64,000 nucleotides of DNA from Adlercreutzia faecimuris. GTDB lineage: Bacteria; Actinomycetota; Coriobacteriia; Coriobacteriales; Eggerthellaceae. The stretch covers positions 372,001-436,000 of the forward strand of contig NZ_JAJMLW010000002.1 of NCBI RefSeq assembly GCF_022669055.1, read 5' to 3'. Position 1 is the stretch's first letter. Each line of letters opens with the position of its first letter. Positions 17,468-19,300 of the stretch are shown in pieces. Both the position numbers and the translations under genes were made by a program. The notes beneath the pieces are model-generated. The model saw only the letters and a program-made list of their open reading frames with translations. It ran no database searches and had not been told where the DNA came from.

Positions 17468-17474
17468 GCCCGCC

Positions 17475-17480
17475 AGTATA
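17475..17480 (-). promoter_or_regulatory. Candidate -10 of priA, leaderless geometry
   Basis: TATACT on the minus strand with exactly seven bases before the priA ATG at 17467 and no Shine-Dalgarno sequence. The spacing matches that at 7573-7586. No convincing -35. Confidence 0.4.
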
Positions 17481-17766
17481 CCGCAGCCACCCCTGGCCGC
17501 CGCGGCCGCCCGCCGCACCATGCCCGCCACAGCCGACAGCCGTCGCGCCCCACCCGCCGTGCCGCGTCCGCCGCAGCCGGCAGCCGCGCGCCGGCCGCCA
17601 AGCCCTCGCACCACGCACGGCCCGACCACCGCACCGCAGGCAGCCGCCCCAGCCGGCCCGCCGCGGGCCGTCCCCATCCGCCGCATGCGGCCGGTCGGCC
17701 ATGCCGGACGCTCCAGCTTCCGAAGCCGACCACGCTGCTGCGCCGCCCCCCGTCCGCCCGCATGCC
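17481..17766. other. GC-rich intergenic stretch without a gene
   Basis: I see no credible coding frame, RNA gene or terminator here. Open frames are proline/arginine-rich shadows produced by the base composition. Confidence 0.5.
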
Positions 17767-17976
17767 GCCCGAAAACGCGACTTATCACACCGAATTCCGC
17801 GCCTTCTCCCCTCCTCCCCGCGAGCCTTCTCCCATTTCCCCAGATCAGAAATCGCCACTCCCCATCCGAACCACCCGACGGCCATAAATCAGGTGTGATA
17901 AGTCGCGTTTTCGGGCAGGCGAATGTGATAAGTCGTGAAAAATGGCAGATCCTGCCGCAAATGGCGACTTATCACA
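17767..17976. repeat. TGTGATAAGTC array, left copy
   Basis: Four copies of TGTGATAAGTC in the order minus (17779-17789), plus (17894-17904), plus (17924-17934), minus (17966-17976). The first two sit in 25-base perfect inverted arms (17767-17791 and 17892-17916). The last two form a hairpin with 12-base arms (17924-17935 and 17965-17976) and a nested GGCAG/CTGCC stem. TTTCCCCAGATCAGAA lies between the first arms at 17835-17850. A second array with the same order and spacing lies on the other side of the gene at 18097-19062. Confidence 0.85.
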
Positions 17977-18058
17977 TCGGAGAAGCGGCACAGGCTACGC
18001 GAATTATGGGCCCCTCGTAGTCTTTGGCGCGCGACGGCAACGCCGATCGCCGGCGGGC

Positions 18059-18091
18059 TTACACTCTCCGCCCGAGATGAGAGAAGTGTAA
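18059..18091. promoter_or_regulatory. Inverted repeat upstream of the nuclease-like gene
   Basis: TTACACTCTC at 18059-18068 is mirrored by GAGAGAAGTGTAA at 18079-18091 with one bulged base, five bases before the ATG at 18097. It could be an operator or a translation-blocking hairpin for that gene. No separate Shine-Dalgarno sequence is evident. Confidence 0.4.
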
Positions 18092-18096
18092 ACGCC

Positions 18097-19062
18097 ATGT
18101 TACTCGTGCTGCACGGCCTGTCCGCCTACCGACTCTGGTTCCGCTCCACCCGGCGCCCCGCACCGTCGGGCGCCACCGACGTCCGCGTCCTCGCCGCCGC
18201 GTCCCCGACGCGGACCTCCGTCGCCTACCTGCGAGAGGCGATGCCCTGGCTCGGCCCCACCCCGCATCTGCTCTGCGCGCAGAACTCGCGGCGCGTCGAC
18301 GGGGCGGCGGCGCACCGCTCCTCCTACCGCTATCCGCCGGGCTCGTTCCTGCCCGTGGGCGGCGGGGTCCACGCCGCATCGCCCGAGCTCACCGCCGTCC
18401 AGCTGGCCCTGCGCTGCCCGAGCCCGCTTCTGGAGAAGGCGCTCTGCATGCTCCTGGGCACCTGGGCCCCGGCGCCTGACGGGCTCTACGGGACCCTCAG
18501 CCGCCCGCCGCTGACGGACGCCCCCGCCCTGGGGGCCTACCTCGCGGCATGCCCGGGGCTCCCCGGCGCGAGCGCGCTCGCCCGCGCGCTGCCCCGTGCG
18601 ATCGAGCGCGTGGCATCCCCCGCCGAGGCCGACCTGGCGCTGGCGCTGTGCCTGCCCCCGCGGCTGGGCGGGCAGAGCCTCCCGAAGCCGGTCGCCAACC
18701 ACCGGATCGACCTCAGCCCGCGGGGACGCGCCCTCGCGCGGCAGCGCGTGGCCTACGTCGACCTCTGCTGGCCGGACCGCGGCCTCGTCCTCGAATACGA
18801 TGCCGACCTCACCCACCTCAACCCCGAGCAGCACGCCCGCGACGCCTCGCGCCGCGCCGCGCTGGAGTCCGACGGCTACAAGGTGATCACCGTGACGACC
18901 GAGCACCTCTACGGGCCGCGCTCCCTCGACCCCATCGCCGACGAGGCGGCCCGCGTGCTCGGCATCCGGAGACGGGCGCGCCCGGCGGGGTTCCGGGAGC
19001 GGCAGCGCGCCCTGCAAGGCCTCCCGCGCGGCTACGACCTCCCCGACGACCTGTTCGCCTGA
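18097..19062 (+). CDS. DUF559/AbiEi-like protein with predicted endonuclease-fold C-terminus
   Basis: A 321-residue protein I cannot assign to a characterised enzyme. The C-terminal third, about residues 215-290, reads VDLCWPDRGLVLEYDAD, followed by H, Q, D and R positions and a GYKVITVTTEHL strand. This resembles the Vsr/DUF559 branch of the PD-(D/E)XK fold, with D and E-Y-D as possible metal ligands. The N-terminal part, with KALCMLLGTW and LYGTLSRPPLT segments, looks like proteins annotated as AbiEi-like in actinobacteria. There is no signal peptide or membrane segment. It starts at ATG 18097; the open frame upstream belongs to the repeat array. It stands alone between two copies of that array. 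Confidence 0.5.
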   Translation: MLLVLHGLSAYRLWFRSTRRPAPSGATDVRVLAAASPTRTSVAYLREAMPWLGPTPHLLCAQNSRRVDGAAAHRSSYRYPPGSFLPVGGGVHAASPELTAVQLALRCPSPLLEKALCMLLGTWAPAPDGLYGTLSRPPLTDAPALGAYLAACPGLPGASALARALPRAIERVASPAEADLALALCLPPRLGGQSLPKPVANHRIDLSPRGRALARQRVAYVDLCWPDRGLVLEYDADLTHLNPEQHARDASRRAALESDGYKVITVTTEHLYGPRSLDPIADEAARVLGIRRRARPAGFRERQRALQGLPRGYDLPDDLFA

Positions 19063-19084
19063 GCCGGCCAGCGCGACGCTGCCG

Positions 19085-19300
19085 CAAAACGCGACTTATC
19101 ACACGGAAAACGGCGCTTTTGGCCGCTTGACACGGTGACTGGGAAATCTGCTAAACCGTTTTCCCAGGTCAGAAGCCTTCGCATTAGGCAGCAGAACGGA
19201 AACGGCGGCGCAGGCGGTGTGATAAGTCGCGTTTTGGGGCACCTGGATGTGATAAGTCCCCGTTTATGGCGCTTTCTGCCAAAAACGGGGACTTATCACA
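19085..19300. repeat. TGTGATAAGTC array, right copy
   Basis: Four copies of TGTGATAAGTC in the same minus, plus, plus, minus order: 19093-19103, 19218-19228, 19248-19258, 19290-19300. Outer arms of 20 bases are perfect (19085-19104 and 19217-19236). The last pair forms an 18-base perfect stem (19248-19265 with 19283-19300) enclosing a TGGC/GCCA stem. TTTTCCCAGGTCAGAA is at 19159-19174. Start-to-start spacing of sites 2-3 (30) and 3-4 (42) is identical to the left copy, while the sequence between has diverged. Confidence 0.85.

Follow-up and report, generated by a model that had tools for sequence, protein, structure and literature searches.

Dispersed palindromes served by a dedicated enzyme are known in bacteria, so far mainly from the HUH-type RAYT-REPIN systems. 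In these systems palindromic repeats flank the gene of the enzyme (PMC3116915, PMC3733652), the same repeat is dispersed as inverted pairs that are mostly extragenic, and the repeat type is specific to the lineage and to the enzyme. The nuclease genes and arrays described here resemble REPIN-RAYT systems in these respects: palindromes flank the enzyme gene and recur, mostly outside genes, as dispersed inverted pairs. They differ in the enzyme, which is AbiEi-like with an EDxHD nuclease and in which no HUH/Y1 domain was found, and in the DNA, with units of 130-230 bp built around a TTTNCCCAGGTC core and no shared GTAG end in place of GTAG-tagged palindromes of 20-40 bp. Arms of 20-30 bp, a conserved directional core and the helical phasing of duplex sites are further differences; in addition, the enzyme genes within a genome are numerous and divergent, and every one has arms of its own. 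Because the defining HUH transposase and the GTAG-tagged palindromes are missing, the system is not a member of the REPIN-RAYT group.

Two other groups of proteins resemble parts of the enzyme. With the EDxHD homing endonucleases (I-Bth0305I) and Vsr it shares a predicted nuclease fold and the catalytic residue set; in contrast to them, it shows no sign of an intron or intein, is joined to an AbiEi-like domain and is encoded by a gene flanked by dispersed matched arrays. Inverted repeats are bound by both AbiEi and Rv2827c, and in AbiEi each of the two domains has positively charged side chains that are important for binding (PMC7319586). The N-terminal half of the protein resembles the C-terminal domain of these antitoxins, but no winged-helix domain was matched in the model, and a nuclease domain is present instead. 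No AbiEii nucleotidyltransferase toxin gene adjoins the gene studied here, whose neighbours are priA and metK. The open-access papers searched yielded no earlier description of such a system, although one is possible in subscription papers, and searches for DUF559, AbiEi/Vsr, Eggerthella repeats and miniature repeats with an endonuclease returned no relevant open-access work; against that literature we rate the system as new in its enzyme and in its DNA architecture.

The window, that is, the whole 64-kb stretch of DNA analysed, holds the nuclease gene and its two flanking arrays (Table 1). The eight exact TGTGATAAGTC sites reported in the preliminary description were recovered, together with their order (-,+,+,-) and the spacings of 30 and 42 bp in both arrays. 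The inverted arms are likewise real, pairing at 25/25 positions upstream and 24/25 downstream, as are the cores (TTTCCCCAGATCAGAA at 17835 and TTTTCCCAGGTCAGAA at 19159). Allowing one mismatch adds only two more sites in the 64-kb window, where the chance expectation for exact and one-mismatch sites together, ten in all, is 0.28. The spacing of sites 1 and 2 is 115 bp in the upstream array versus 125 bp in the downstream one, a difference of 10 bp or about one helical turn, and a scan of the whole window for inverted-repeat-plus-core elements returned these two arrays only. The reverse-strand reading frame of priA is open into the upstream array (17468-17788); a start near 17468 would leave this array intergenic. 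In another Eggerthellaceae genome an ortholog of the window gene (L119:1203-2177; 53% identity) occupies the same priA-metK interval, with diverged arms and an array on the downstream side only.

Table 1. Nuclease gene and flanking arrays in the window (window coordinates)
Feature	Position	Strand	Remarks
Nuclease gene	18097..19062	+	321 aa; AbiEi-antitoxin-like fold predicted for residues 1-169; predicted EDxHD/Vsr-type nuclease domain, residues ~172-290
Upstream array, left arm	17767..17791	-	contains site 1, 17779-17789
Upstream array, core CCATTTCCCCAGATCA	17832..17847	+	left site 42 bp away, right site 46 bp away
Upstream array, right arm	17892..17916	+	contains site 2, 17894-17904
Upstream array, site 3 unit	17924..17946	+	site 3 at 17924, 30 bp past site 2
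Upstream array, site 4 unit	17954..17976	-	11-mer at 17966, starting 42 bp beyond the site 3 11-mer start
Downstream array, left arm	19080..19104	-	contains site 1, 19093-19103
Downstream array, core CCGTTTTCCCAGGTCA	19156..19171	+	left site 52 bp away, right site 46 bp away; left distance one turn more than in the upstream array
Downstream array, right arm	19217..19241	+	contains site 2, 19218-19228
Downstream array, site 3 unit	19248..19270	+	site 3 start 19248
Downstream array, site 4 unit	19278..19300	-	site 4 11-mer at 19290

The resemblance of the encoded protein to Vsr/DUF559-like nucleases, noticed at the outset, was borne out by profile search and by structure modelling. The top profile match was I-Bth0305I (E = 0.0021). 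The AlphaFold model of the 321-aa protein is confident (pLDDT 94.7, pTM 0.92), and its residues 172-290 align with I-Bth0305I (3r3p) at Z 10.4 over 95 residues (rmsd 2.9) and with Vsr (1cw0) at Z 8.6; S174, E177, D222, E233, H240 and D249 are near-invariant across the nuclease family. As modelled, the C-terminal half has a Vsr-like fold with conserved acidic and histidine catalytic residues, and endonuclease activity is predicted. The N-terminal 171 residues, modelled alone, align with AbiEi (6y8q) at Z 8.3 over 118 residues (rmsd 3.4) and with Rv2827c (1zel) at Z 5.5, the next match scoring 3.1. This likeness, which has a moderate Z and drew no support from sequence searches, is a fold-level lead suggesting that the N-terminal half may have the fold of the AbiEi C-terminal domain.

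The family comprises eight genes in the genome of the window (G000) and has matches in 40 of 60 genomes of the order, with up to 14 genes per genome; most paralogs and homologs share 30-58% identity with the window protein. The nuclease domain is weakly matched by Pfam DUF559 and MTES_1575 in 29 and 37 of 45 members, respectively, at E <= 0.1, the window protein being under the curated cut-offs of both, and the Y1 transposase family is absent from the Pfam matches of family members. No NCBIfam model matched any of the 45 members, and with the PADLOC defence models the window protein had no match and two homologs had weak partial ones only. A phage origin was rejected, no relative having been found in viral contigs.

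The association between this gene family and the arrays was assessed at 90 distinct genes with 175 flanks, together with 377 control windows from the same loci, counting bracketing inverted repeats with a score of at least 14. Such repeats were found in 83/175 flanks versus 7/377 control windows (Fisher p = 2.6e-40). About three quarters of the genes having both flanks testable (63/85) carry at least one bracketing palindrome and 22 of the 85 have no array by the strict test; in G000 all eight family genes have a flanking array. Across ~50 homolog loci many flanks share k-mers set in minus/plus orientation per side, and the motif differs at nearly every gene. Where both flanks hold an array, upstream and downstream arms match in 14 of 18 genes versus 5 of 306 mispaired comparisons (p = 3e-17). 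The link between the nuclease family and the arrays is real, family-wide and specific. In addition, arm similarity follows protein identity (Mantel r = 0.37, reached in 0 of 5000 permutations; 65 genes) and tracks the AbiEi-like half (partial r 0.29) more than the nuclease half (0.09). This co-variation owes part to the common descent of linked flanks; it is the dispersed copies that reveal a genome-wide match.

The initial statement that TGTGATAAGTC occurs nowhere else in the window stands for exact copies, but the site is not unique, and the idea that it belongs to the window gene alone was rejected: G000 has 36 exact copies in ~11 arrays. A reversed control of the pattern gave no array in G000, and the paired pattern had no copy in 59 relatives. 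The arms around the cores of G000 sort into families. Family A consists of the 36 sites, with TGTGATAAGTC-N3-TTTTCTGGCAG as the full unit; family B has 32 arm matches, which are similar to the arms of the nearest gene, L049, without being identical; the 41 arms of family C make up ~20 elements, and gene L051 lies between two of these; and the arms of family D are closely like those of gene L054. The family B arms at L190-L203 of G000 (TGCGAGATCGCCGTTTTTTGTCCAC) consistently differ from those of L049 (TGTGAGATCGGCGTTTTCTGACCA); the enzyme gene that goes with them may have been lost or may have escaped recognition. The arm type found next to gene L136 is dispersed in 48 copies in Enterorhabdus sp. 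P55 (G001) and in 24 in another genome (G002), with none in G000, G003, G006, G007 or G014. Two Atopobiaceae genomes contain dispersed copies (9-11 arms) and two have copies only at the gene; similarly, the arms of L057 (Adlercreutzia caecimuris) were found only at the gene. Of 31 elements tested, 26 have a non-coding appearance, against a background in which 83% of random windows resemble coding sequence. Matched elements without a gene are scattered through the same genome and missing from most relatives; the arrays are scattered, but they are linked to the gene family by their arm sequences. Set against the two objections foreseen in the preliminary description, scattered arrays and genes without arrays, the outcome is mixed but not fatal.

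One directional core, GYRTTTNCCCAGGTCR, is common to the elements, and the gene-specific arms surround it. The TTTYCCCAGGTCA core occurs 24 times in G000 and 18, 16 and 7 times in three congeners, the reversed control giving one match in 60 genomes, and in 36 genomes of the family the core tends to be found where the gene is (18/26 genomes, versus 1/10 without the gene; p = 0.002). Since about half of the exact core matches tested outside G000 have no recognisable arms, and since in many Atopobiaceae arrays the core was not seen with the simple pattern used, the core is best established in the Eggerthellaceae. Arm-less exact TTTYCCCAGGTCA matches in distant genomes outside the genus (L083, L093 and others) may be degraded elements or chance. 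A Dcm-like CCWGG in the core, considered as a Vsr-type target, was rejected as a rule because many cores lack it, among them those of the window (CCAGATC), L020 (CCCTGATC) and L031 (CCCAGCTC).

Taken as a whole, these arrays and genes almost certainly form a matched enzyme-element system, in which a nuclease has its own dispersed family of DNA elements. The fuller reading, an AbiEi-like/EDxHD nuclease with dispersed gene-matched elements and a logic like that of REPIN-RAYT carried by an unrelated enzyme, is the best explanation and a reasonably probable one. Points against it are the 22 genes without an array by the strict test, the restriction of the L057 arms to their gene, the imperfect match between family B arms and L049, and the moderate Z of the AbiEi likeness. 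Among the readings first offered for the locus, a multi-site regulated gene cannot be a full account, since the majority of arrays are distant from the gene. That of a mobile or domesticated element tied to the nuclease kept its link to the arrays, which is family-wide and specific, and lies in the direction to which the evidence points; that the nuclease acts on its own arrays is plausible. Selection on a folded structure, also suggested at the outset, found no support. Whether the nuclease cuts the core and drives a copying step is an evenly balanced question. We infer that the arms are bound by the AbiEi-like half, that the core is cleaved by the nuclease half and that copying or conversion proceeds through repair. 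Several copies of the protein would bind the arms as duplex DNA and form one phased complex that brings the nuclease half to the core, which would be nicked or cut; repair or replication from the break would then copy the element, or convert other elements to the same arms. The set of elements would in this way spread while staying matched to its own enzyme, and the gene lying between two elements would be the source copy.

Under the broadest version of this proposal the system would be a second, independently evolved partnership of enzyme and palindrome, in which a nuclease reading double-stranded DNA breaks the common core and so copies its own phased arm-core-arm elements or converts them, and in which many lineages, each specific with respect to the others (up to 14 enzyme genes), run in parallel in one genome; we regard it as no better and no worse than an even proposition. 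A system that follows this logic without homology, through another enzyme and a helically phased duplex site, would offer an independent test of how element populations originate, stay matched to their enzyme and persist. Moreover, the family is a ready-made set of enzymes that differ in dozens of recognition arms while sharing one core; it is useful for learning how DNA recognition changes and may help in making site-specific nucleases. It also accounts for many repeats that lack annotation in the Coriobacteriia, a common group among gut bacteria.

Two family C elements of G000, L172:2150-2360 (C1:663173) and L001:2570-2780 (C1:670593), lie 7.4 kb apart and have in common a unit of 168 bp, in opposite orientation and 95.8% identical. 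For ~20 bp beyond the arms on either side the two loci match in direct orientation, after which similarity stops; the interior is inverted relative to the shared outer ends, and the flanking DNA is unrelated. The pair is a recent copy with a flipped interior, with no target-site duplication recognisable by eye. G001 and G002 are ~92-95% identical where their neighbouring DNA aligns. An element whose arms read GACGACTTTGCGAC occurs in the former (L278:371-643, an interval 155 bp longer) and missing at the orthologous interval of the latter (L264:265-382), a difference that could be a deletion, as gain and loss look the same here. The flipped recent copy and this presence/absence difference, one instance of each, suggest mobility.

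The main rival to an element that moves holds that these are resident chromosomal sites of a host-serving, site-specific DNA-binding or nicking protein with a role in architecture, repair, transcription ends or regulation, the elements being kept by selection and movement being rare or a relic. Three orthologous elements of G001 and G002 keep 91% of the arms and 91% of the core at a spacing of 132-133 bp while their spacers have diverged to 70-74%, so that they are constrained in place, and such retention of arms, core and spacer length would be expected if the elements served the host and did not merely spread. The elements are also mostly intergenic, and orthologous nuclease genes stay at one locus, as seen for the window gene and L119 between priA and metK and for L051 and L059, which adjoin the same downstream gene. 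On the other hand, each genome and each gene has arm sequences of its own, and these change from one related species to another, which is odd for sites chosen by the host, and a recent copy and a presence/absence difference do exist. On this evidence the host-serving account is unlikely to be the principal one, and it may be that the mobile-element and the host-serving views are both true at different times.

A homing-type gene drive, in which the nuclease would cut related arrays and repair would copy in the gene or array, would make the arrays homing targets and not a mobile payload. The best match of the nuclease domain is the homing endonuclease I-Bth0305I, whose family reportedly forms dimers on a target almost 60 bp long (PMC3943268), and the flipped L001/L172 interior fits conversion through inverted arms. 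This account is nonetheless improbable: the window gene sits between two complete arrays and splits neither, most arrays have no gene, and orthologous genes remain at one locus.

For the enzyme matched to dispersed elements, the form in which the DNA is recognised can be approached through the spacing of the sites. Measured between fixed anchors in families A, B and T, the left arm lies nearly always 31/32, 42 or 52/53 bp from the core and the right arm 35/36, 45/46 or 56 bp from it, with a second site 30 bp beyond; families A and B have these extra sites 3' of the core. Pooling these distances gives a periodicity of R = 0.98 close to 10 bp, a value reached by 0 of 2000 jittered sets; relatedness of the copies inflates these counts, but it does not predict one-turn steps. 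Within a single family, arm-to-arm spacings run 99, 110, 121 and 131 bp in one case and 133, 144 and 155 bp in another, the best periods for arm spacing being 10.55-10.75 and the step ~10.5 bp. The conserved feature is the sites with their helically phased spacing. Folded RNA or single-stranded hairpins as the functional form (a structured RNA, a cruciform or REPIN-like single-strand transposition) would agree with the long inverted-repeat arms and with core-pair arms agreeing somewhat better (11.8/15) than those taken from different loci (9.5/15). The selection on base-paired structure proposed in the preliminary description nevertheless finds no counterpart in the 42-bp 'hairpin' partners, which do not co-vary and agree at 9.0/15 variable positions versus 9.5/15 between different loci; left and right arms of family C often differ, no Rfam family reaches its gathering score for the arrays, and RNA or single strands have no need of helically quantised spacing. 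Because the distance between arm and core varies by whole helical turns, binding of proteins to duplex DNA is likelier than a hairpin, a form that we hold to be very improbable, and the geometry together with the non-conserved 42-bp pairing favours protein protomers placed on one face of duplex DNA.

That the arrays are only autoregulatory operators, as in AbiEi or Rv2827c antitoxins, which bind promoter inverted repeats (PMC7319586), would suit an upstream array ending ~120 bp 5' of the nuclease start codon but is hardly credible, given that arrays also follow the gene and occupy tens of loci far from it, and that the nuclease residues are conserved. More complex flanking repeats, with tandem or nested sites, are found beside the homologs at L043, L047, L068 and L041.
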